Of a stretch of DNA of 64,000 nucleotides, positions 37,043 through 51,164 are shown one piece after another; within the stretch, counting starts at the first letter, position 1; the number at the start of each line of letters is the position of its first letter. The notes beneath the pieces are model-generated. The model saw nothing but the letters and a program-made list of their open reading frames with translations. It ran no database searches and was not told the DNA's origin. The stretch lies in assembly GCF_027923905.1 (NCBI RefSeq), contig NZ_AP026966.1, forward strand, positions 868,001 to 932,000, read 5' to 3'. The stretch is from Massilia varians. Lineage in GTDB: Bacteria > Pseudomonadota > Gammaproteobacteria > Burkholderiales > Burkholderiaceae_D. The position numbers and the translations under genes were made by a program.

Positions 37043-40000
37043 TCAGCGCCAGCTCCCCCGCACGTCCTCGCAGCGCTGTCCCTGCGCGGCCTGGCCGTGC
37101 CGCCGCGCCAGCTCCGCGCACAAGAGCCCGACGTCGAGCCCGCCGTCGCGGGTGCGCGCCGCCTCCATCGCCCCGTCCAGCGCGCATTCGCCGATGTACT
37201 GCCCCAGCGCCCGGTAGCTCTCGAACTGAGTCTCGTCGAACCACTGGTCGACCGAGCTCTCGTGCGGATAGGCCGGGTGCACCTTGCGGTAGTTGAGCAG
37301 GTCGGCGTTCTCGCGGCCGACGATGGCGGGCTTGATGTACAGCAGCGTGCCGTCCACGCCGCCGTGGTCCACCTGACTGTAGCGCAGCGTGCCGACCGCG
37401 CAGCTGGCGCCGCACAGGCCGCCGCCGCCCAGCTGCGCCAGCTTCGAGACGTCGAGGTCGATGCGCACGTGCAGGTCGGTGCCGACCTTGCGGATCGCAT
37501 TGCCGAGGTCGGCGAAGGCCAGGTCGCCATCGCTGGCCACGTCCACCGCGATGATCAGGCGGCAGCGCCGCCGCACCAGCTCGTAGATGCCGAGGTTGTC
37601 GAAATGCCCGCCGTCGGACAGGTAGACGTAGGTGGCGTCGGCATTGGTCAGGCCGAACAGCTCGGCCAGCAGGCTGAACAGGCCGAGACGCGGCGAGGAT
37701 TGCTGCCAGGCCGCCTTGCGCGGATTGGGACACCAGCGGCCCAGGCGCACGTTGAACATCGTCATCAGGAAGTTCAGCGGCGGCGAGGAGTGCGCGCCCA
37801 TGTTCGGGCTGGCCGCCGCGCCGGAGACCGCGACCGCCATCCCGAGCCGCACGCCGGCATCGTCGTCGGCCCCGGCGCCCGCGCGCGAGCCGTAGGCGCC
37901 GGTCGGGCGGTAGCAGCCGCGCGCGGCATCCAGGGACTGGGCGCTGCCGGCCACGCCGTGCACGGCGGCGCTGCCCACCGATCCGGGCGGCAGCTCGAAG
38001 CCGCAGTAGCGCGGCGTGAAGGTGAACGAGGCCGCCTTGCGGGTGCGCCAGGCCAGCTCCTCGCCGCCGACCAGGTTGAGCGAGGTATTGATGATGTGAC
38101 AGGGGCGCTGCTGCTTCAGGTCCGCCAGCAGCGGGTCGTCGCCGGGGTCGAAGCCGGTGAAGGGGTGGGGCTTGCGTGCGCGGCTGCTGGCGCCGAAGTA
38201 GGCGCGCACCAGGCGGTTCCGGTACAGCATGTAGAGCGAGAACTTGTTGATGTCCACGCGCCATCCGAGCAGCAGCGCGGCGCCCAGGAAAATCGCGAAC
38301 GCCCACGCCAGCCGGCTGCCGCTGGTGGCCAGGGTGGCGCTGGCGTGGGCGCCGTAGACACAGGTGAGCGTGACCGGCTCGGGACAGGCGATGCGCGGCG
38401 GCGCCACCGCGGCCTGCACCAGCGCGCTCAGCAGGGCGAACACGCCGGCGGTGAACACGTAGGGCGCGAGCCGCGCCGCCACCTCGAAGCGCGTGTCGCC
38501 CGCGCGCAGGCCGCCGGCCCAGGTGCCGGTCCTGCTGCCGCTGCCGGCCTTCAGGCCAAACCAGGTCATGAGCAGCCAGCCGGCGGCGGTGGTGATGTGC
38601 GACCACACGTTCAGGGTCAGCCAGGCCCAGTGCAGCAGCGGGGCCAGGAAGAAGGAGACGCCGAACATCGAGACCCAGGCCAGCGCGAAGATCCAGGTCC
38701 AGGCGCCCTGGCGGCTCCACCATTCGCGGCTGGCGTCGCTGTACAGGCGGCCGATCAGGCCGATCATCAGCGTCATGGTGCCGGCGAACAGCGCCATCAT
38801 CAGCGGCATGCCGAAGGTGGTGAGGGCGATCGCGTTGTTCAGCACCGGGTGCGTCTTCGGATCGGGCAGCATCGACAGCCCGGCCAGCAGCAGCAGGGTG
38901 CCGATCCCGAGGGCGCCGAGGGCGCAGGCCAGGTGCGACAGGCCTTCGATCATCTCGGCGCGCGTCAGGTCGGCCGAGGGCGGATGCGGATGCAGCAGGC
39001 GCGGCACCACAGCGAGGGCGCTGGCCACCATGAGCAGCACCACGAACAGGGCCACCAGGCCGTTGACCAGCAGGTCGCAGGCGTCCCGTGCCATGAAGCG
39101 CACCATGGTTTCCGGCGCGAAGGCGCGCGCCGCCGCGCACAGCACCGCCAGCACGGCCACGAAGGACGCCCCGCAGACCATGTAGCCGGCGCGCCGGTAG
39201 ATGCTGGTGCGGTCGTGCGCCAGGTACCAGCCGCAGGCCCACACCACGAAGTAGGCGAAGCCCGGCGCCAGCAGCCAGAGTTCGCGTCCCGCCAGCTGCG
39301 CCGGCAGCGCGGTCCATTCCCAGAAAGGCGTTTCGCCGCCGTGCCGCCACAGGCCCAGGCTGCCGAGGAAGCCCGCCAGCAGCAGCGGCAGGTTGATCCA
39401 CCAGAGCACCGCGCCCTGCGACAGCGGGAAGCGGCGCCGTCCGCGCGAACCGGTCGGCTTGCTGGACACGCTCAGGGCGATGCAGAACACGGCGAACAGG
39501 AACAGCAGCACGCCGGCCATCCAGGCCAGGTCGGCATACATGGCCCACGGTCCGCCGGGGTCGACGGTGCGGTGCACGGCCCATACGGCGGCGCGCGGCA
39601 GCAGGAGCAGGGCGCACAGCCAGGCCACCAGCATCGTCAGGTTCAGGCCGGTGTTGCGGGCGTAGCTGCCGATCAGGGTCCAGGTGTCGGCGCTGAACAT
39701 GCCGCCGTGCGGGGACAGGTAGTTGCAGTACTGGCGCAGGAAGCGGATCGCGGGCGCCTCGGCGCTGCCGGCCGCACTGGCGCTCTTGCGCGCCAACATC
39801 TCTTCGACCAGGCGCACGTCGCCGCCCTGTTCGTGGATGCACTTGGACAGCCAGCCGCCGATGAAGCCGCCGCCGGAGACGGTCGACAGGTAGTCGAGGT
39901 GGCGCAGCAGCCGCTGGTCCGCCATGGCCTGCAGCACGCCGAGGCCGAAGGTGGCGCTGCGCACGCCGCCGCCGGACAGCGCCAGCCCGATCATGCCGGC

Positions 40001-40312
40001 CTTGTGGGCGCGGGCGGCGAGATCGGCGCCGGGGGCGGCCTCGGGGTCCGGGCGCAGCAGCTCGAGTTCGTCGCGGAAGACGTCCTGGAAGGTCGCGCCG
40101 CTGACCTCGTTCAGGCGCTGCAGGGTTGCGTCGTCGAGCACGCCGCGTCCGGCGATGCCCTCGCGCCGGCGGAATTCGACGATCGCCTCGGCCAACTCGT
40201 CCAGCGTGCAGGCATGGGCCGGCGGGCGGCAGCCGGCCGCCTCCAGTTTGCGGCGCAGGTCGGCGATGTGCACCGGAGCCAGGCTGGCGGGGGCGAACGA
40301 GGACACGGGCAC
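37043..40312 (-). CDS. Large membrane-embedded patatin-like phospholipase
   Basis: The 1089-residue protein has a patatin-like acyl hydrolase domain split by a long membrane region. N-terminal parts: oxyanion loop LSGGGVRSATFGLGVL (residues 112-127) and nucleophile Ser146 in STVSGGGFIGGW. About ten hydrophobic segments follow between residues ~210 and ~660. The catalytic Asp returns near residue 900 in SDGGHFDNLGIYELV. The serine lies in V-S-G-G-G rather than G-x-S-x-G, as in related bacterial proteins. It would hydrolyse lipid acyl chains at the inner membrane. Its target and partner genes are not clear; it ends one base past the REC-TPR gene, in convergent orientation. Confidence 0.85.
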   Translation of the reverse strand: MPVSSFAPASLAPVHIADLRRKLEAAGCRPPAHACTLDELAEAIVEFRRREGIAGRGVLDDATLQRLNEVSGATFQDVFRDELELLRPDPEAAPGADLAARAHKAGMIGLALSGGGVRSATFGLGVLQAMADQRLLRHLDYLSTVSGGGFIGGWLSKCIHEQGGDVRLVEEMLARKSASAAGSAEAPAIRFLRQYCNYLSPHGGMFSADTWTLIGSYARNTGLNLTMLVAWLCALLLLPRAAVWAVHRTVDPGGPWAMYADLAWMAGVLLFLFAVFCIALSVSSKPTGSRGRRRFPLSQGAVLWWINLPLLLAGFLGSLGLWRHGGETPFWEWTALPAQLAGRELWLLAPGFAYFVVWACGWYLAHDRTSIYRRAGYMVCGASFVAVLAVLCAAARAFAPETMVRFMARDACDLLVNGLVALFVVLLMVASALAVVPRLLHPHPPSADLTRAEMIEGLSHLACALGALGIGTLLLLAGLSMLPDPKTHPVLNNAIALTTFGMPLMMALFAGTMTLMIGLIGRLYSDASREWWSRQGAWTWIFALAWVSMFGVSFFLAPLLHWAWLTLNVWSHITTAAGWLLMTWFGLKAGSGSRTGTWAGGLRAGDTRFEVAARLAPYVFTAGVFALLSALVQAAVAPPRIACPEPVTLTCVYGAHASATLATSGSRLAWAFAIFLGAALLLGWRVDINKFSLYMLYRNRLVRAYFGASSRARKPHPFTGFDPGDDPLLADLKQQRPCHIINTSLNLVGGEELAWRTRKAASFTFTPRYCGFELPPGSVGSAAVHGVAGSAQSLDAARGCYRPTGAYGSRAGAGADDDAGVRLGMAVAVSGAAASPNMGAHSSPPLNFLMTMFNVRLGRWCPNPRKAAWQQSSPRLGLFSLLAELFGLTNADATYVYLSDGGHFDNLGIYELVRRRCRLIIAVDVASDGDLAFADLGNAIRKVGTDLHVRIDLDVSKLAQLGGGGLCGASCAVGTLRYSQVDHGGVDGTLLYIKPAIVGRENADLLNYRKVHPAYPHESSVDQWFDETQFESYRALGQYIGECALDGAMEAARTRDGGLDVGLLCAELARRHGQAAQGQRCEDVRGSWR

Positions 40313-42619: not shown

Positions 42620-42744
42620 CGGTCTTCTCCTTGGCTAGAAGCTTCAAGCGTAGCAGATAAATAACACGCGACAAAGCTTGCACGGCAAACGCGCCAATGT
42701 GCCGCGTCCCTGCGCCCCGGCGGCGCTCAGGCTACACTAGCAGC

Positions 42745-43851
42745 ATGAGTTCCGCTTTTCCTCCTCAGCGGCTGCGCGCCCTGGTGCTGGGCACGCTCAT
42801 CGTGCTGCTGCACTGGCTGGTGCTGGGCTGGCTCACCGCGGGCACGCAGGGCATCGCGCTGCCGGCGCGCGAGGGCGAAGCCTCAATCAGCCTGGCGCAG
42901 CTGCTGCCGCCGGCGCCGTTCGACGCGCCGGCGACCGAATCCGTGCCGCCGCCGGCGCCGAAGCTGGTGCAGCCGCCCTTGCCGGACTTCGGACCGCTAC
43001 CCACGATCGCGGTGACCGAGGAGGCGGTAGGGGAGCCGGTGCGCCCCGGTCCGCCGGCGCAGGCGACCACGCTACCGGCCGAGCCCGCTGCCGCGGCGCC
43101 GGTGGCCATCCAAGCCGAACCGGCCGCGGCCGAACCCGAGCCCGGTCCGGCGCCGCTCGTGCACACGGTGCGGCGCTACCAGGTGGACGTGCCGCCGCCG
43201 GCCGAGCTCAGCTACAAGGTGGCGCGCACCGACGCCGACGGCACCACCTGGAGCGGCCAGGCTTTGCTGTCCTGGAAGCGCAACGACCAGGCTTACCGGA
43301 TGCGCTTCGAAGCCGGCATCAAGATCGTGTTCGCGCGCGTGAACCTGGCGGTGCTCACCAGCGAAGGCCATCTCGGCAACACCGGCCTGGCGCCGGTGAA
43401 GATGACCGAAAAGCGCCGCGGCCGGGCGCTGACGGCGACCCATTTCGACTGGCCCGCCAACAAGCTGAGCTTCTCTGCTTCGGAGGGCAGCTACGCCTTG
43501 CAGCCAGGCGCGCAGGACAAGGCCACGGTGCCGCTGCAGCTGGCTGCCATCGCGCGCGGCGACCCGGCCCAGCTGAGCGGCGACATCGACATCTTCGTCG
43601 GCGAAGAGCGCTGGGGCGCCATGTACACCTTCAAGGTGACGGGACCGGAGGACATCGACACCCCGCTGGGCCGTTTGCAGACCGTGCGCATCACGCGCCC
43701 GCCGAAGCCGGGTTCGTACAAGTCGCGGCTGGACATCTGGCTCTCGCCCGCGCATGGCTGGCTGCCGGTGCAGATCCGCAGCAGCGAAGCCAACGGCGCG
43801 GTAACCACGCAAACGGCGAGTGACATCGCCATGACCCAACCAGGATTCTAG
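42745..43851 (+). CDS. DUF3108 protein with TM anchor and Pro-rich linker
   Basis: The 368-residue protein has an N-terminal membrane anchor (residues ~10-35), a Pro/Ala-rich stretch to about residue 145 that resembles the periplasm-spanning part of TonB-like proteins, and a C-terminal DUF3108 domain (YKVARTDADGTTWSGQALLSWKR, DIFVGEERWGAMYTFKVTGPE). DUF3108 is a periplasmic beta domain of unknown role common in Burkholderiales. ATG 42745 starts just before the anchor. It ends 2 bp before the second DUF3108 gene. Confidence 0.83.
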   Translation: MSSAFPPQRLRALVLGTLIVLLHWLVLGWLTAGTQGIALPAREGEASISLAQLLPPAPFDAPATESVPPPAPKLVQPPLPDFGPLPTIAVTEEAVGEPVRPGPPAQATTLPAEPAAAAPVAIQAEPAAAEPEPGPAPLVHTVRRYQVDVPPPAELSYKVARTDADGTTWSGQALLSWKRNDQAYRMRFEAGIKIVFARVNLAVLTSEGHLGNTGLAPVKMTEKRRGRALTATHFDWPANKLSFSASEGSYALQPGAQDKATVPLQLAAIARGDPAQLSGDIDIFVGEERWGAMYTFKVTGPEDIDTPLGRLQTVRITRPPKPGSYKSRLDIWLSPAHGWLPVQIRSSEANGAVTTQTASDIAMTQPGF

Positions 43852-43853
43852 AT

Positions 43854-44606
43854 ATGCAAAACTCTGCCCTACGACATGCCGGCTGCGGCCTGCTGCTGGC
43901 GCTTACCCTGGGCACTGCCGCCGCACAGGATGCCCCGGCCGCCATCAAGCGCAAGTTCGAATTGCCGCCTTCGGCCGATCTCCACTACGAATTGCAGGCC
44001 CGCCAGCGCGGCTTCGGCCTGAAGGGCGAAGCCATCGTCAGCTGGCGCGCCGGCGACGGCAAGTACACCGTGAGCGCCGAATCGAAGGTGCCGCTGCTGG
44101 GCACCATCACCCAGGACCGCAGCAGCGGCACGATCGACGCCTTCGGCCTGGCCCCCGCCGAATTCGTCGAAAAACGCATGCGCAAGGACCCGACCACGGC
44201 CACCTTCGACCGCGAGGCGAAAGCGCTGCGCTTCAGCGAAAGCAAGCAGGTCTATCCGCTCAAGGGCGGCGAACAGGACCGCGTCTCGATCACCTGGCAG
44301 CTGGCCGCCGTGGCGCGCGGCGCCGGCGAGCGCTTCAAGCCGGGTTCCGAGTGGCCCTTTTTCGTGGCCGGCCGCCGCGATGCGGAAACCTGGGTGTTCA
44401 AGGTGATCAGGCGCGAAAAAGTGCGCACCGGCCTGGGCGAGGTCGAGGCCGTCCTGGTGGCGCGCCAGCCGGTGGCCGACAAGAAGGACCAGGTGCTCGA
44501 GGTGTGGCTGGCGCCGCAGCAGGAGTGGTACCCGGTCAAGCTGCGCTATGCCGACGGCGACAAGGAACAGATCGAACAGACCCTCAAAACTGTGACGAAA
44601 CCCTGA
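43854..44606 (+). CDS. DUF3108 protein, secreted
   Basis: A 250-residue precursor with a signal peptide (residues ~1-25, ...AAAQDAPA) and one DUF3108 domain (LHYELQARQRGFGLKGEAIVSWR, FFVAGRRDAETWVFKVIRREKV, LEVWLAPQQEWYPVKLRY). It parallels the preceding protein, which suggests tandem duplication with loss of the anchor and linker here. It is 2 bp after that gene, so the two form one operon. No activity is known. Confidence 0.84.
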   Translation: MQNSALRHAGCGLLLALTLGTAAAQDAPAAIKRKFELPPSADLHYELQARQRGFGLKGEAIVSWRAGDGKYTVSAESKVPLLGTITQDRSSGTIDAFGLAPAEFVEKRMRKDPTTATFDREAKALRFSESKQVYPLKGGEQDRVSITWQLAAVARGAGERFKPGSEWPFFVAGRRDAETWVFKVIRREKVRTGLGEVEAVLVARQPVADKKDQVLEVWLAPQQEWYPVKLRYADGDKEQIEQTLKTVTKP

Positions 44607-44714
44607 ATTGGATTTCACAAAATGCAATATTGTCTTGTTTTTAAGGCAATGGATAGGTGTGTCTTTCCTGCAATCGCGGGCCCCCGCAGCCGCTAGTTGC
44701 CGATCCTAAACTGT

Positions 44715-44771: not shown

Positions 44772-46142
44772 ATGATCGACCACCTTGGCGGCGCGGCGCT
44801 CGCCGTAGAATCCCTTTCGACTCCACTGGAAGACGACCCCCTGCAGGCGCACTTCCAGGACGGCGTCGCGCCCGACGAGATCGAGCAGGTTTACCACCTC
44901 AAGCGCGCCCAGCCCATGCTGTCAGCCTTCACGGCGCTGTTCCACGGCACCCAGGACGGCGTGCTGGTGCGCCTCCTGGTGCTGCGCGAGCTGGCCAGCG
45001 ACACTGGCGCATCAAGCTTCTCGCGTGCCGACATCAACAACAAGCTGGCCTACCTGACCGCGGAAAGCCTGGAGACGGTCCTGAACCGCCTGCGCAGCCA
45101 CGGCCTGCTGGCCTGGGACGGCCCCAGCGCCGTCTACCGCATCACGCCGCTGGCGCGCAACGTGCTGTCCGCGCTCGACACCCTGATCGCGCTGGCCAAG
45201 CCGGAAGAAGACGATGCCGAGATGGGCTTCCTGCTGTCGCAGGTGGCCGGCGCCCAGGCCGTGGGCGGGGTCACCGTGGAGCAGCTGCGCCACCTGCTGG
45301 GACGCCTGGTCGAACTCACCGAGGAGTTCCGCGACGCCATCGCTTCTGGTTCCGAATTCCGCCTGCGCACCTCGCAGGCGAAGTGGCACATGGCCTGCGA
45401 CTGGGTCGAGAAGGGCTCGGTCATCCTGCGCGCCATCCTCCAGGACCCGGCCGCCGACGCGGCCACCCACAAGGCGGCGCAGGCCATCGGCCGCGCCCAG
45501 AGCGCGCTGCTGAACATGCAGGGCATGTTCTCGCGCGCCCTGAACCAGATCGAGCGCCAGCGCGTGCACCTGGGCCAGTCCGGCCTGTCGACCACCGACG
45601 TGAAACGCTGGCTGCTGGCCCACGAGGACCTGGCCAGCCTGGCCGAGGACGCGATCGACCGTCCGGTGGTGCCGCTGTTCGGCACCCCGGCCGAGATGAT
45701 CGACGTGGCCGAGACCGAGCTGCTGCTCGAGCGCGTGACCTCGACCGGCCCGAAAGGCCTGCCGACCGGTACCGACGCACCCTTGACCGTCAACGACAAC
45801 CCGGCGATGCAGGCCGAACTGAACGACTGGATCAACAAGCTGGCCGACTTCGCCAACCTCGGCAACTTCCCCGAGTTCTCGGACAGCGGCCCGAAGAAGG
45901 TGGCGCTGCACGAGTCGCTGCTGCCGGCCAGCTTCGCCGTTGCGTCCTACCGGGCGTCGCTGCTGCCCCTGCTGGGCGATGCGTCCGAGGCCAGCCTGCA
46001 GGGCGCGACCGCCGAGCTGGCGCGCCTGCCCGTGAAATTCGAACCGACCGACGAGATGATCCAGCTCGACGACCCGGAAGTGGCGGCGATGTCGATCGCC
46101 TCCCTCTCACTGAATCTTGAAAGCGGTAACCCCGATGAATGA
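44772..46142 (+). CDS. Kleisin-like subunit of an SMC complex (MksF/JetA-like)
   Basis: The 456-residue protein opens with a winged-helix-like domain (residues ~30-135; RLLVLRELASDTGASSFSRADINNKLAYL, LRSHGLLAWDGPSAVYRITPLARNVLS), then a long helical region and another small C-terminal domain. This is the build of MukF/MksF/JetA kleisins, which close the SMC ring. The family cannot be named with certainty; assignment rests on position: it is first of three tightly packed genes whose last encodes an SMC ATPase. Its end overlaps the second gene by 8 bp. ATG 44772 is preferred; the frame is open 25 codons further upstream. Confidence 0.75.
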   Translation: MIDHLGGAALAVESLSTPLEDDPLQAHFQDGVAPDEIEQVYHLKRAQPMLSAFTALFHGTQDGVLVRLLVLRELASDTGASSFSRADINNKLAYLTAESLETVLNRLRSHGLLAWDGPSAVYRITPLARNVLSALDTLIALAKPEEDDAEMGFLLSQVAGAQAVGGVTVEQLRHLLGRLVELTEEFRDAIASGSEFRLRTSQAKWHMACDWVEKGSVILRAILQDPAADAATHKAAQAIGRAQSALLNMQGMFSRALNQIERQRVHLGQSGLSTTDVKRWLLAHEDLASLAEDAIDRPVVPLFGTPAEMIDVAETELLLERVTSTGPKGLPTGTDAPLTVNDNPAMQAELNDWINKLADFANLGNFPEFSDSGPKKVALHESLLPASFAVASYRASLLPLLGDASEASLQGATAELARLPVKFEPTDEMIQLDDPEVAAMSIASLSLNLESGNPDE

Positions 46143-46839
46143 CGACGCACAAATCCTGATCGCGCGCCTGCTGACGCACCAGACCCTGCGCCGCGACGAC
46201 AAGATGGTCAAGCGCGCGCTGTCGGACGAGCAGTTCCGCCAGGAGGTGGACAAGCGCCTGCTGGAATGCGGCCTGAAGCTGCTCGACAACGTCTACGCCG
46301 ACCACGTGACGATCGCCCTGCACCGTAACGTCGAGCCGAAGATCTTCGGCGCCAAGGACATCTGGCAGAACAACAACTTCGGCCTGACCCGCGACGGCGT
46401 GGCCCTCCTGGTGGTGCTGTGGGCGCAGATCATCCTCCCGAAGCGCGAGCGCCAGGAAACCCACACCACGGTGGCGGACGACCAGACCGACATGTTCGGG
46501 CAGGACACGCCGATCCCGCGTGCCGAGGATACCTCGATCGGCATCTCCTACACCGCGCTGCTGTCCGACTTCGGCGACAAGCTGGGCAAGAAGACCCGCA
46601 TGGACATGAACCTGGGCGTGCTGTCCAAGCTCGGCTTCATCGAGCGCCGCGGCGACGTGATCCTGGAAGGCCCGCTGCTGGACCTGATGATGGACACCGA
46701 CCTGCTGAAGGAGCGCATCATCAACGGCGCCCTGGCCGAGGTGTTCAAGCGCGCGCCGCTGGCCGCCGCCCCGCGCAAGATCGATGCCGCCAACGATGCG
46801 GTCGTCGAAGCCGCCGCTGACGAAGAAACTCCGAACTAA
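46135..46839 (+). CDS. KITE-like winged-helix subunit of an SMC complex (MksE/JetB-like)
   Basis: The 234-residue protein is mostly winged helix: DEQFRQEVDKRLLECGLKLLDN, DGVALLVVLWAQIILPKRE, MDMNLGVLSKLGFIERRGDVI with an acidic tail. MukE/MksE/JetB proteins have tandem winged helices, bind the kleisin and load DNA, and lie between the kleisin and SMC genes, exactly as here. ATG 46135 overlaps the previous gene by 8 bp; an upstream ATG at 46117 is less likely. It ends 9 bp before the ATPase gene. The function is inferred from the operon. Confidence 0.75.
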   Translation: MNDDAQILIARLLTHQTLRRDDKMVKRALSDEQFRQEVDKRLLECGLKLLDNVYADHVTIALHRNVEPKIFGAKDIWQNNNFGLTRDGVALLVVLWAQIILPKRERQETHTTVADDQTDMFGQDTPIPRAEDTSIGISYTALLSDFGDKLGKKTRMDMNLGVLSKLGFIERRGDVILEGPLLDLMMDTDLLKERIINGALAEVFKRAPLAAAPRKIDAANDAVVEAAADEETPN

Positions 46840-46848
46840 GGTAAGCCC

Positions 46849-49671
46849 ATGTTCCACATCAAATCACTCGAACTGGTCCACTGGGATTACTGGCAGCGGA
46901 TCAAGAACATCCCGCTGGACGCCAAGATCATCACGATCGCCGGCCAGAACGGCTCCGGCAAGACCACGCTGCTCGACGCGCTGCGCACCCTGTTCGGCCT
47001 GGACTGCTCGATGGGCCGCACCTATAAACACTATGCGCGCCACTCGGGCCAGCAGAGTGCCTGGCTGCGCGCCGTGGTCGACAACAAGCCGTCCGGCCGC
47101 CAGCTGTCGAACCGCCCGTTCCGCCATTCCGGCTTCTTCGCCGACGACGAAGTGACCCTGTTCTGCCAGGTGCAGAAGAACGGCGGCGACTGGAAGCGCC
47201 AGTACCTGATGCGCCCAGGGAACGTCGAGATCGAGGAAGTCACCGACGCCACCGACTGGCTGGGCGTGGAGAACTACAAGAAGCGCCTGGCCTCGGCCGG
47301 CCTGTCGCCGGCGATGTCGAAGGTGCTGGCGCTGGAGCAGGGCGAGACCGACAAGCTGTGCGAATACGCGCCGCGCCAGCTGCTGGATCTGGTGTTCCAG
47401 GTCTTCGGCGACAAGGAAGTGCTGGACGCCTACGACGAAGCCAAGCGCCACCAGCGCGATACCGAGACGGAACTGAAGCGCTTCGAGGCCGAACTGGAAA
47501 CCTCGCGCATCAACCTGGAAGGCCTGCGCCTGCGCGTGGCCAACTACCACCAGTGGGAAGACCTGCACAAGGAAAAGCGCGAACTGCAGGAAGAGGTGCT
47601 GCCGGCGCTCGAATACATTGAAGCGCGCGAAAAGGCCGCCTTCACCAGCCGCAACCTCAAGGAAGCCCGCAAGCCGCTGTTGCAGGCCGATTCGATCCTG
47701 GCCGAGAAGCGCCAGCAGCTGGCAGCCCAGCAGCGCGCGCTCACCGAAGCGCAGAAGCAGGAAACCCAGCTGGAACAGGAAGCCACCGAGCTGGCCAGCC
47801 GCCTCACCCAGGTCAACCAGAAGCTCAAGCCGCTGGAAAGCCTGCTGGAACAGAAGGAGCGCCTGCAGAAGCTGTCGCTGGATGCCGGCGCCGACCTGGC
47901 GGAAGTCGCCAACCAGCTGAACGAAAAAGAAGCGGAACTCGCCAAGCAAAAAGCAACGCGCGACAACATCGCCGCAAAAATCGCCGGCGAGCTGGCCACC
48001 ATCTCGGCGCTGCAGGGCAAGAGCGCGATGCCGGAGCCGGAAGCCCAGCGCCAGATGCGCCGTGCGCTGCGCGACGAGGGCATCGCCCATGCCATGCTGT
48101 CGGACATCGTCGAAGTGACCGATCCGAAGTGGCAGGGCGCGGTCGAGGGCGTGCTGGGCGGCTACGCCTCGGTGGTGCTGCTTGAAAAAGCCAAGGATGC
48201 GCCGGCGGCCTACCGCCTGGCCGAGAAGGAGCGCTATCGCCACTTCATCGTGCCCGACTGCGTCGAGGCGCCGGTGGTCAAGGATGCCAGCCTGCTGTCG
48301 GTGGTGCGTTTTTCCGGCAAGGCGCCGGGCTGGCTGATCGACCAGCTGGAACGCATCGAGCGCGTGGATTCGGTGGACGCCGGCTTCAAGTCGGATTGCG
48401 ACGAATGGATCACCCCGGACGCCTACCACCGCGAACGCCGCGGCGGACGCTCGCTGTTCGTGGAACCTTCGCGCTACCGCTTCGGCTCCGCCGGCAAGAC
48501 CCAGCGCCTGGAAGCGATCCAGAAGTCGCTCCCGGCACTGGAAGCGCAGGAAGACGCGCTGACCCTGGCGATCAGCAAGCTCGCCGCCGAGGTAGGCGCC
48601 TTGAAGGGCCGCATCGCCGGCGTCGACGCCGCCAAGGAACTGGCCGCGCGCCAGGCCGAGTTCGAGGAAGTCGCACGCGCGCTGGCCCCGCTCAAGGCCG
48701 AGCGCCTGGAAGTGGGCGCGCGCCTGGGCGAACTGTCGTTGCTGACCAAGAACGCGACGGTGGCGCGCACCCGCGCCGACACCGTGTGGCAGAACGCGCG
48801 CATGGCCCTGTCCGAAGCCGAAGCCGGCATGCGCCTGAACAACCGCCGCACGATCGAGCAGCGCCTTGAGCATGCCAAAGCGCTGCTGGCGCTGCGCAAG
48901 AGCTGGCGCGACGTGCCGAAGAACTGGAAGAACGCCGGCTGGCGCGGCGACCTGGTGGCCAAGCACCAGAACGCGCACCAGGTCAACCTGCGCCTGTCCT
49001 CGCTCGAGCACGCCCTGGCACGCGACGACTGGGAACAGGACAACACCGTCATCGACCAGTACGCGCGCCTGAACGACCAGCTCAGTGGCCGTCAATCCGA
49101 AACCGAGGAGCGCCGCTACCAGAACAACCGCGCGATCGAGGCCACCGCCAACGCGCGCGGCGCCTACATCGAGCGCCTGCGCTACACCATCAAGACCTAC
49201 TCCAAGAACATCAAGGAGCTGGGCGAGCTGGCGGGCATCGACGTGCAGGCCGATCCGGTGCGCCTGGAGAACGACGACGTGCAGCTGGCCCAGGCCGGCC
49301 TGCACGTGCGCTTCAAGTTCGACGGCAAGGACCAGATCGGCATGAACGACGGCGAGGCCTCTGGCGGCCAGCAGGTGATGAAGTCGCTGGTGCTCTTGAT
49401 CGGCCTGCTGAAGTCGGAAGAAGGCTCGGGCGGCTTCGTGTTCATCGACGAACCCTTCGCCCACCTGGATATCCGCAACATCCAGCTGGTCGGCGAGTTC
49501 CTGAAGAACACCGACGCCCAGTACCTGATGACCACGCCGCTGACGCACAACACCGACGTGTACGACCCGTCGGAGCTGACGCTCATCACCAGCAAGAAGA
49601 AGAAGGACGTGCAGTGGGCGCAGCCGATCTTCGTGCTGCAGCGAAGGAAGGACGAGGCGAAGGCCGCGTAA
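46849..49671 (+). CDS. Short SMC-type ATPase (MksB/JetC-like)
   Basis: The 940-residue protein has Walker A at residues 32-40 (GQNGSGKTT), coiled-coil ~190-390, an SMC-hinge-like region ~400-535 (DEGIAHAMLSDIVEVTDPKW, VEGVLGGYASVVLLEKAKDA), returning coil ~545-790, ABC signature near 836-845 (EASGGQQVMKSL) and Walker B with the catalytic Glu near 862-873 (GFVFIDEPFAHLD). It is a genuine SMC layout with arms of ~200 residues, shorter than Smc or MukB. It should form the ring with the two upstream subunits and extrude or bind DNA. RBS AAGGTAAG precedes ATG. Whether it serves chromosome folding or defence is not shown. Confidence 0.88.
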   Translation: MFHIKSLELVHWDYWQRIKNIPLDAKIITIAGQNGSGKTTLLDALRTLFGLDCSMGRTYKHYARHSGQQSAWLRAVVDNKPSGRQLSNRPFRHSGFFADDEVTLFCQVQKNGGDWKRQYLMRPGNVEIEEVTDATDWLGVENYKKRLASAGLSPAMSKVLALEQGETDKLCEYAPRQLLDLVFQVFGDKEVLDAYDEAKRHQRDTETELKRFEAELETSRINLEGLRLRVANYHQWEDLHKEKRELQEEVLPALEYIEAREKAAFTSRNLKEARKPLLQADSILAEKRQQLAAQQRALTEAQKQETQLEQEATELASRLTQVNQKLKPLESLLEQKERLQKLSLDAGADLAEVANQLNEKEAELAKQKATRDNIAAKIAGELATISALQGKSAMPEPEAQRQMRRALRDEGIAHAMLSDIVEVTDPKWQGAVEGVLGGYASVVLLEKAKDAPAAYRLAEKERYRHFIVPDCVEAPVVKDASLLSVVRFSGKAPGWLIDQLERIERVDSVDAGFKSDCDEWITPDAYHRERRGGRSLFVEPSRYRFGSAGKTQRLEAIQKSLPALEAQEDALTLAISKLAAEVGALKGRIAGVDAAKELAARQAEFEEVARALAPLKAERLEVGARLGELSLLTKNATVARTRADTVWQNARMALSEAEAGMRLNNRRTIEQRLEHAKALLALRKSWRDVPKNWKNAGWRGDLVAKHQNAHQVNLRLSSLEHALARDDWEQDNTVIDQYARLNDQLSGRQSETEERRYQNNRAIEATANARGAYIERLRYTIKTYSKNIKELGELAGIDVQADPVRLENDDVQLAQAGLHVRFKFDGKDQIGMNDGEASGGQQVMKSLVLLIGLLKSEEGSGGFVFIDEPFAHLDIRNIQLVGEFLKNTDAQYLMTTPLTHNTDVYDPSELTLITSKKKKDVQWAQPIFVLQRRKDEAKAA

Positions 49672-49674
49672 GCG

Positions 49675-49705
49675 AAGGGGAGCCTGGCCGGTTCCCCTTT
49701 TTATT
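49675..49705 (+). terminator. Intrinsic terminator of the SMC operon
   Basis: AAGGGGA (49675-49681) pairs with TCCCCTT (49693-49699) around an 11-base loop, followed by a T-rich stretch TTTTATT to about 49705. It starts 4 bases after the stop of the ATPase gene. The operon therefore ends here, ahead of the inserted element. Confidence 0.75.
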
Positions 49706-49735: not shown

Positions 49736-49745
49736 GGGTCAGGTC
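49736..49745. repeat. Left stub of palindromic element cut by the insertion
   Basis: GGGTCAGGTC is the first part of the 17-base terminal repeat GGGTCAGGTCTGACATT. Bases 49737-49745 (GGTCAGGTC) recur at 51082-51090 as the target duplication of the insertion sequence. Joining 49745 to 51091 restores the intact element. Confidence 0.65.
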
Positions 49746-51081
49746 CTGACCCTTCCCCTCAAATTTTCACTACCTGCACCAGATTGATCAGTGTAAGTAG
49801 GGCGAGCTGGAAGGCGTGCCGATCTAGCCGAGGTCGCACGCAATCGGTCAAGTAATGACGTGCCAGGGTAAGTATCGAGAGCGTTGGCCCTGACTTCTTC
49901 GTGTTGCCATAGTTGATTTGGTAGCCAGCATTTGCTGCCGCCAAGCCGATCAGCCAGAGGGCATAGCTGATCAATGCTCCAAGCATCAAGAGCACTTCCA
50001 GGCGTTGGGGCGCGCGCGTCTGGCTTTCTGTTAATGCCATTCCCCATTGCGCATTTTTTAAATCCCGGAAGGTTTGCTCGATCTGCATCCGGCCAGCGTA
50101 GATCTCTACTACCTGTCTCGCACTCAATGCTTCCAAGTCCGAGGAGACGGCGAGTAACCAGGGTTCAACTTGGGCAGCCCTGTTCTTCTTGCTGTTGGAG
50201 CTCATTGTCTTCTTGCCGAAGCTGGTGCGGTGATGACGCCCTTGCGGTGCCTTTTTGTACAGCACCAGCTGGCATGGTGTCGCGTTGGCGCGTGCATACT
50301 GAAAACGGCCAAGACAGCGTGGCTTGGCTGTCGCTCCGGCATACCAAGTCTTGCATCCATCCCACTGTCCGGATCCTTCGGCACATACCATGTCACGGTT
50401 CCGGATACGCCCAACCCACGAAATGTGCATTCCCGTGGCCAGCTTGAACCACGTTGCCCGGAATCCGGCATCCGTGACCAGTATCGGCCGGCATTGATCG
50501 GGCAATAGCGAGCATAGCGTCTCGAGGAAGCAGCGGTGTACTTTTGAAGAACCCAGGTCGGATTCCTCGTGCACCTCTTCGTAAAGAACGAAGGCACGTC
50601 CCTTGACGGTGACCGCAGCACGCAAGAGATGCAAGCTTCCATCAGGCACCAAAACGGACCAGTCGACAGTAATGGCAATGTGCCGATGACCAGCCAGAAC
50701 GGCTTCGTCCAGAGCATGAAAAATCGTTAGCCGCTCAGACAACAGATGACGATTACTCAGCAGACGATCACAGCACTTGATGCGATGACGAATGCTCGTC
50801 TTCGCCTCTAGAGAGCGCCCCATCTTGACAACGCCAAGCCCGCCGATTCTGCCGGCCTCAGCCACTTTCGCGATGCAGCAGCGGCGCTTGGCATGGATCT
50901 GGGAACACTTCGTGTCCAACAGATTTTGTATGATGCGGTGTGCGTGCATGGTTGCTTCTCCTTCGCAGTTTGGTCGCTACGAAAGAGAGGGCTAACACAG
51001 CCATGCATGCACCAGCTTTTTTCACAGGAAGCTAACAGCAACCCCATCCACCTACAAGAAAAATATGTGGGGAAGGGTCAG
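49746..51081 (-). mobile_element. IS4-family insertion sequence, complete
   Basis: The 1336-bp element has terminal inverted repeats starting CTGACCCTTCCCC; the two ends match at 20 of the first 22 positions (left 49746-49767, right 51060-51081). It is flanked by the 9-bp direct repeat GGTCAGGTC (49737-49745 and 51082-51090), a length normal for IS4-family elements. It carries one transposase gene on the minus strand. The element is inserted within an older palindromic repeat, 75 bp after the SMC ATPase gene, and appears recent because both ends and the duplication are intact. Confidence 0.85.
49759..50949 (-). CDS. IS4-family DDE transposase
   Basis: The 396-residue transposase has the IS4-family YREK signature in YAGRMQIEQTFRDLK (Y-x2-R-x3-E-x6-K), with the catalytic Glu inside it. 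The other two acids are probably in ITVDWSVL and LVTDAGF. The reading frame is open throughout and begins with AAGGAG 11 bases before ATG, so the enzyme may be active. Its TGA overlaps the left terminal repeat. It is the only gene in the element. Confidence 0.92.
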   Translation of the reverse strand: MHAHRIIQNLLDTKCSQIHAKRRCCIAKVAEAGRIGGLGVVKMGRSLEAKTSIRHRIKCCDRLLSNRHLLSERLTIFHALDEAVLAGHRHIAITVDWSVLVPDGSLHLLRAAVTVKGRAFVLYEEVHEESDLGSSKVHRCFLETLCSLLPDQCRPILVTDAGFRATWFKLATGMHISWVGRIRNRDMVCAEGSGQWDGCKTWYAGATAKPRCLGRFQYARANATPCQLVLYKKAPQGRHHRTSFGKKTMSSNSKKNRAAQVEPWLLAVSSDLEALSARQVVEIYAGRMQIEQTFRDLKNAQWGMALTESQTRAPQRLEVLLMLGALISYALWLIGLAAANAGYQINYGNTKKSGPTLSILTLARHYLTDCVRPRLDRHAFQLALLTLINLVQVVKI

Positions 51082-51164
51082 GGTCAGGTCTGACATTCGG
51101 ACACGGACTGAGCAATACAATCAAAGTAATGCTCGAGCTCGTGTCTAAATGTCAGACCTGACCC
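51082..51164. repeat. Palindromic MITE/REP-like element, right remainder
   Basis: GGTCAGGTCTGACATT (51082-51097) mirrors AATGTCAGACCTGACC (51148-51163). With the G at 51081 and C at 51164 the arms are 17 bp, exact, and the match extends to GACACG/CGTGTC with two mismatches, 25 bp in all. The interior is short, about 34 bases, and non-coding. It has the size and arms of a MITE or a REP doublet. The insertion sequence lies in its left arm. Confidence 0.7.

Follow-up and report, generated by a model that had tools for sequence, protein, structure and literature searches.

In Wadjet (JetABCD/MksBEFG, types I and II), a structural maintenance of chromosomes (SMC) complex recognizes a small circle, which is then cut by JetD (PMC7617805, PMC10512200, PMC10586767). 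Several members of the group without a nuclease are on record (PMC7617805; also PMC10586767). The MksBEF of P. aeruginosa is, by its published description, a kleisin–KITE–SMC system that coexists with Smc, aids chromosome organization and segregation and likely arose through loss of JetD (PMC10586767, PMC7485682). Where Wadjet came from and how it is related to MukBEF and MksBEF is described in PMC10586767 as not resolved, with nuclease loss as a suggested route. Here we describe a three-gene operon, mksFEB, from Massilia varians (NZ_AP026966.1, positions 868,001 to 932,000; this 64,000-nucleotide stretch is the window, to which coordinates below refer unless another contig is named). It has no linked nuclease gene and is probably of Wadjet-like descent, its products most likely serving as an auxiliary chromosome condensin beside Smc–ScpAB. 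The literature that we examined gives no account of this family or of repeated nuclease loss within one family; supplements, including the tree of PMC7617805, lie outside that scope, and we claim no priority.

A kleisin–KITE–SMC operon

Three genes follow one another on the forward strand: mksF (44772–46142, 456 aa) and mksE (46135–46839, 234 aa), assigned as kleisin and KITE subunits from their open reading frames (ORFs) and predicted folds, and mksB (46849–49671, 940 aa), an SMC-type ATPase by profiles and motifs. The mksE ATG overlaps the 3′ end of mksF by 8 nt, and 9 nt separate mksE from mksB; a TTG at 44697 is a possible, less likely start for mksF. These are the coordinates given in the original prediction, which was made from the letters of the window, and the F–E–B order is the same in 20/20 near relatives. 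In the nearest relative sampled, mksB shows 97% identity from end to end. A terminator-like hairpin (49674–49700, forward strand; 11 pairs followed by a T-rich tail) lies 3 nt past the mksB stop, and the operon therefore looks closed after three genes. The two strands of the window hold eight terminator-like sites, against 5.1 expected from shuffles; the one after mksB leads them in number of pairs and sits where an operon end is expected.

MksB carries all three of the ATPase motifs originally claimed for it: a Walker A (GQNGSGKTT, about residues 32–40), a signature (EASGGQQ) and a Walker B (FVFIDEPF), the latter two at about residues 835–875. We read the hinge as spanning about residues 395–560, which together with the head motifs plausibly leaves arms of ~200 residues each. 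The claim that these arms are shorter than in related families holds by total length (940 aa, compared with 1486 for E. coli MukB and about 1110–1160 for the JetC of the same host), but a short coiled coil is already a published trait of MksB (PMC4255302).

Profile searches place MksB in the Mks/Wadjet group. It matches Pfam SMC_N (2.9e-13) and, weakly, SMC_hinge; NCBIfam SMC_prok_B scores 66.5 bits (E 1e-18), under its cut-off. The MksB profile finds the PDB JetC chain 8dk2_C (4.4e-10), residues 371–635 align with the host JetC (hhalign E 2.7e-10), and PADLOC JetC models match part of the length (best 5.3e-17). The partners are placed by predicted folds. MksF is predicted to have an N-terminal winged-helix domain and a helical middle domain, both MukF-like, and its C-terminal part aligns with JetA/MukF chains at large root-mean-square deviation (rmsd) only. 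The AlphaFold model of MksE (pLDDT 71, pTM 0.44) has JetABC entries as its top three Foldseek matches (8as8_C, 1.4e-5; 8dk1_F, 1.6e-5; 8dk1_E, 4.1e-5). For both proteins the structure search gave domain-level similarity and no low-rmsd full-length superposition. The JetB/MksE-type Pfam family DUF4194 is matched weakly by 15/36 members of the MksE family, the window's MksE not among them. The JetB IFDR motif (PMC10586767) prompted a search of the MksE N terminus for a similar nuclease-contact motif, in which we saw by eye no MksG-linked difference (23 MksG-bearing rows and 25 of the 84 others).

The locus therefore shows the marks of the MksBEF group, namely a kleisin of MukF/JetA fold upstream, a JetB/MukE-like KITE gene between kleisin and SMC, an SMC-type ATPase that has a hinge as well as the Walker A, signature and Walker B motifs, and coiled-coil arms that are shortened, judged by total length. 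With Wadjet it shares gene order, an alignable hinge and the MksE/JetB and MksF/JetA folds, and some of its relatives carry a JetD-type fourth gene; it differs in having no JetD/MksG gene, in its shorter MksB, and in that MksF and MksE fall below detection by JetA and JetB models, so that defence-model matches to JetA, JetB and JetC were not obtained for all three subunits. MukBEF of E. coli also has the F–E–B order, no nuclease and the N-terminal and middle domains seen in MksF, but MukB is far longer, only its C-terminal part could be aligned by profile (hhalign E 1.5e-5), and the window's host retains Smc and ScpA. Smc–ScpAB likewise joins an SMC ATPase to kleisin and KITE partners; however, the host chromosome encodes its own canonical Smc (1108 bits) and ScpA elsewhere, and MksB stands at 66.5 bits against the Smc cut-off of 567. 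The kleisin–KITE–SMC order and Mks/Wadjet affinity proposed at the outset are thus backed by profiles and predicted folds. The operon is real, well conserved and of a known kind, and its interest lies in the mosaic nuclease of its family.

The nuclease gene in relatives

A scan of named genomes yielded at least 488 confirmed relatives; the best 80 include Lysobacter, Luteimonas, Pseudoxanthomonas, Dyella, Luteibacter, Solimonas, Thauera, Methyloversatilis, Chromobacterium, Vogesella, Geomesophilobacter and others. These 80, with 20 near and 4 distant relatives, make up a set of 104 loci (103 once L088, a duplicate of L084, is removed). Surveying neighbours in relatives, as had been suggested, exposed a JetD-type gene, mksG, after mksB in some of them. 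An MksG profile matches 18/104 loci, 17 of them on the same strand within 330 nt downstream of mksB and one (L167) 5.4 kb away; without the duplicate the counts are 17/103 and 16. JetD1 is the best PADLOC match of 6/6 MksG proteins scanned (1e-8 to 2.5e-14), and one of the six reaches Pfam DUF2399 (4.7e-5) and JetD_C (0.17). Judged from these matches, the gene is a JetD/MksG homolog. A glutamate and a D-x-D stretch, which we take to be the Toprim motif, are kept in 22/24 MksG proteins (the pattern failed to pick up that of L202, which was scored by eye). The Crenobacter homologs (L156 and L165) have neither the Toprim-like glutamate nor the second aspartate and may be inactive nucleases, yet the ratio of non-synonymous to synonymous substitution rates (dN/dS) between them is 0.22.

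The window itself holds no such gene, as originally stated: the MksG profile matches none of its frames even at E 10, and the whole host genome has none of this family's MksG at E 1e-5. Among 294 sampled family genomes MksG occurs in ten. Nine of these (two genera) have it beside the mksB of a divergent lineage, 44–46% identical to the window's (four members compared, two with MksG); in the tenth, G529, the match is weak and far from mksB.

On a quick tree of 113 MksB rows (MksG present in 23, absent from 84 and unscored in 6, namely five with short flanks and L167), MksG presence must change at least 16 times, 14 of these changes being forced by branches with support of at least 95; shuffled labels give a mean of 21. 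These counts come from a non-random sample, in which L197–L203 (seven positives) were chosen for MksG and L195 and L196 for its lack, some placements are uncertain owing to several long branches, and in named genomes MksG was sought near mksB only. The MksG tree shares 12/21 splits with the MksB tree, and their distances correlate at 0.82, a value reached in 0/2000 permutations; conflicts lie within genus g247, at L131 and at deeper forks, so some transfer of MksG is allowed. Loss is the better reading of most changes, and gain may hold in individual cases.

One genome, G299, holds a relic. At L070:11201–11330, ~20 nt past the intact mksB of an intact mksFEB, lie 130 nt that share 77.7% identity (E 3.3e-24) with the 5′ end of mksG from its congener G542, followed by what by eye is repeat-like sequence. 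A genome-wide search found no MksG elsewhere in G299, and seven sampled members of its genus retain a whole mksG; three congeners (G489, G374 and G480) have no MksG genome-wide, and the stretch searched for a relic holds none. When all 84 nuclease-less downstream stretches were compared with 24 MksG proteins, L070 was the sole match and reversed-sequence controls gave 0 (the L201 query overruns into mksB and matches the mksB of four loci, which we disregarded). Direct proof of loss is therefore confined to this genome.

The motor genes are constrained in either state. Between the window and L053, dN/dS is 0.17 for MksF, 0.15 for MksE and 0.09 for MksB. Nine nuclease-less pairs, two of which share the window, give 0.09–0.23, 0–0.22 and 0.06–0.15, respectively; five nuclease-bearing pairs give 0.04–0.12, 0.05–0.22 and 0.03–0.12, with 0.09–0.26 for MksG. 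Constraint is strong with or without the nuclease, and perhaps slightly weaker without. Nuclease-less MksB proteins keep Walker A in 84/84 cases and the signature and Walker B in 83/84 each (the Walker B miss being L115, a short frame); nuclease-bearing ones keep them in 23/23, 20/23 and 23/23. By its motifs, then, the motor is retained without the cutter.

The family thus sets several stages side by side: an active-looking MksG, an MksG without the Toprim acidic residues, a 5′ relic, and none. We consider it an evenly balanced proposition that it represents a series of repeated Wadjet-to-condensin conversions, with at least 14 switches of MksG, mostly losses, and MksFEB kept under purifying selection. 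If so, the SMC motor would have a selected function that does not depend on cutting, in nuclease-bearing lineages as well. Closely related four-gene and three-gene operons occur within one genus, leaving the switch open to direct comparison.

A probable chromosome condensin and its rivals

A model drawn from MukBEF and Wadjet (PMC7617805, PMC10512200, PMC10586767) would have MksB dimerize, with the kleisin MksF and a dimer of the KITE subunit MksE forming a bridge between its ATPase heads. On ATP binding the heads would engage, and the neck gate would capture DNA, which becomes entrapped; hydrolysis would then power loop extrusion. Without JetD, extruded loops would persist as chromosome structure. 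The ancestor was probably a four-gene, Wadjet-like mksFEBG from which the Toprim nuclease MksG/JetD was lost. A chromosome role is the most likely one because there is no cutter, as with P. aeruginosa MksBEF, and of the two functions originally offered we favour the first, a divergent Mks condensin that works on the chromosome. The other, a reduced Wadjet that acts against plasmids, survives as family ancestry, given the nuclease gene of kin and the one relic; nothing found points to a present anti-plasmid role.

MksB (E 1e-20 or better) is present in 27/27 sampled genomes of the genus, the window's included, and in 167/294 of the family. The family genomes are largely complete (completeness of 90% or more and contamination of 5% or less in 261/294), and as some are not, absences are upper bounds. 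Further afield, MksB was found in 1/274 genomes of a class draw (single sequence, E limit 1e-30) and 6/398 of a phylum draw (profile, E 1e-20). The chromosome that carries the operon also holds a complete type I Wadjet, JetA–JetB–JetC–JetD (L083, C1:1055758–1062497), ~138 kb downstream of mksB, to which the host's sole PF09983 JetD belongs. A host with Smc, a full Wadjet and MksFEB is a good setting in which to study the division of labour among related loop extruders.

Several observations weigh against a chromosome condensin of Wadjet-like descent. MksF is recognized by predicted fold alone and at large rmsd; Foldseek gives it no match at E 1e-3 or better, unrelated winged-helix proteins equal its match scores in VIA-align, and hhalign of MksF and MksE against single sequences of the host JetA and JetB and of MukF and MukE returned nothing significant. 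MksB is dispensable in the family, as it was not found in 127/294 genomes; a few family matches contain a stop (for example G290, G292 and G315), and L115, a nuclease-less relative, has a shortened mksB frame. PF09983 JetD is commoner where MksB is present (42/167 compared with 13/127; Fisher p 0.0014, kinship ignored), which we count against a pure housekeeping reading, since such a reading does not predict it. Lastly, the window lineage (the window and 16 tree rows) keeps no MksG or relic, so that loss there is old or MksG was never present; we infer loss rather than an ancestral lack.

Rather unlikely, though the best of the alternatives, is that the complex still acts against plasmids without cutting, for instance by compacting small circular DNA or silencing it. 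Its kinship with nuclease-bearing operons would suit this, as would reports that Wadjet senses small circular DNA and that Smc5/6 may restrict DNA by compacting rather than cutting it (PMC10586767). The ubiquity of MksB in the genus is unlike the patchiness expected of a defence gene, seen there in JetD (8/27 genomes, one a partial hit), and none of the genes next to the operon is conserved across the lineage of the window.

Use by MksFEB, in trans, of the JetD encoded by the separate type I Wadjet, which would keep it a plasmid-cutting system, seems to us very improbable. The host does have a complete JetABCD, and the association of JetD with MksB leans the same way. JetD is found in 55/294 family genomes (with MksB in 42 and alone in 13; 125 have MksB alone and 114 neither). 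However, 125/167 MksB-positive genomes lack PF09983 JetD, and 116/167 have neither it nor MksG detectable, so MksFEB does not need to borrow a nuclease. Of the six MksG proteins scanned, moreover, just one reaches JetD_C, at E 0.17.

We give still less credence to a new kind of SMC complex with a mechanism distinct from MukBEF, MksBEF and Wadjet. It would account for the finding that no Pfam, NCBIfam or PADLOC model recognizes the window's MksF or MksE, but folds, hinge, gene order and the JetD-type fourth gene of kin all lead to the Mks/Wadjet group; the suggestion of a new condensin type is rejected on these grounds, and nuclease-less members are already in print (PMC7617805, PMC10586767). 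A Rad50/SbcC- or RecN-like repair ATPase with unrelated neighbours can be set aside: Rad50 head domains come first in a single-sequence PDB search, but the best profile and the domain layout are not those of RecN/SbcC (SMC_prok_B E 1e-18, SbcC 0.013), an SMC-type hinge and the JetC alignment are present, and the F and E partners are conserved.

Operon variants and surroundings

All three genes of the chromosome-condensin candidate were found in 102/104 loci, the two misses lying at contig edges, and 14 of these 102 have an intergenic gap of more than 60 nt. Four loci from Thauera and kin (Rhodocyclaceae; L145, L149, L151 and L158) have an extra gene between mksE and mksB, presumably trmA-like and encoding a tRNA (uracil-5-)-methyltransferase-like protein. 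In L163, also of the Rhodocyclaceae, a 6-kb cassette occupies the same place, which we take to be a sigma factor/FecR/TonB-receptor cassette.

Directly upstream of mksF in the window are two consecutive DUF3108 genes (42697–44606). By clustering of neighbour ORFs, which is inflated by wrong-frame ORFs and was relied on just for the MksG lead, the first of them has a match in 7/104 relative loci and is the best-shared adjacent gene; we therefore rejected the idea that the window's lineage had fixed a different fourth gene. A gene 13 kb from the operon has a match in 9/104. Downstream, ~45 nt beyond the mksB hairpin, lies an insertion sequence (49745–51082) bounded by 23-nt inverted repeats (49745–49767 and 51060–51082), with a DDE_Tnp_1 transposase on the reverse strand (49759–50949). 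Farther upstream, the 1089-aa product of 37043–40312 has a patatin-like domain close to the N terminus, and Pfam matches nothing in the long rest of the protein.

Fragments of the family also turned up. In the family genome G511 (48% complete) the MksB match is broken into five pieces. Another genome of the class, which has no detectable MksB, holds a kleisin relative in several pieces (L031, G028:C71:4703–5766), the longest 49% identical at best, perhaps a decayed copy. Two large Variovorax plasmids, NZ_LR594690.1 and NZ_LR594663.1, hold half-length MksB-like fragments, that of NZ_LR594690.1 flanked on both sides by transposase genes.

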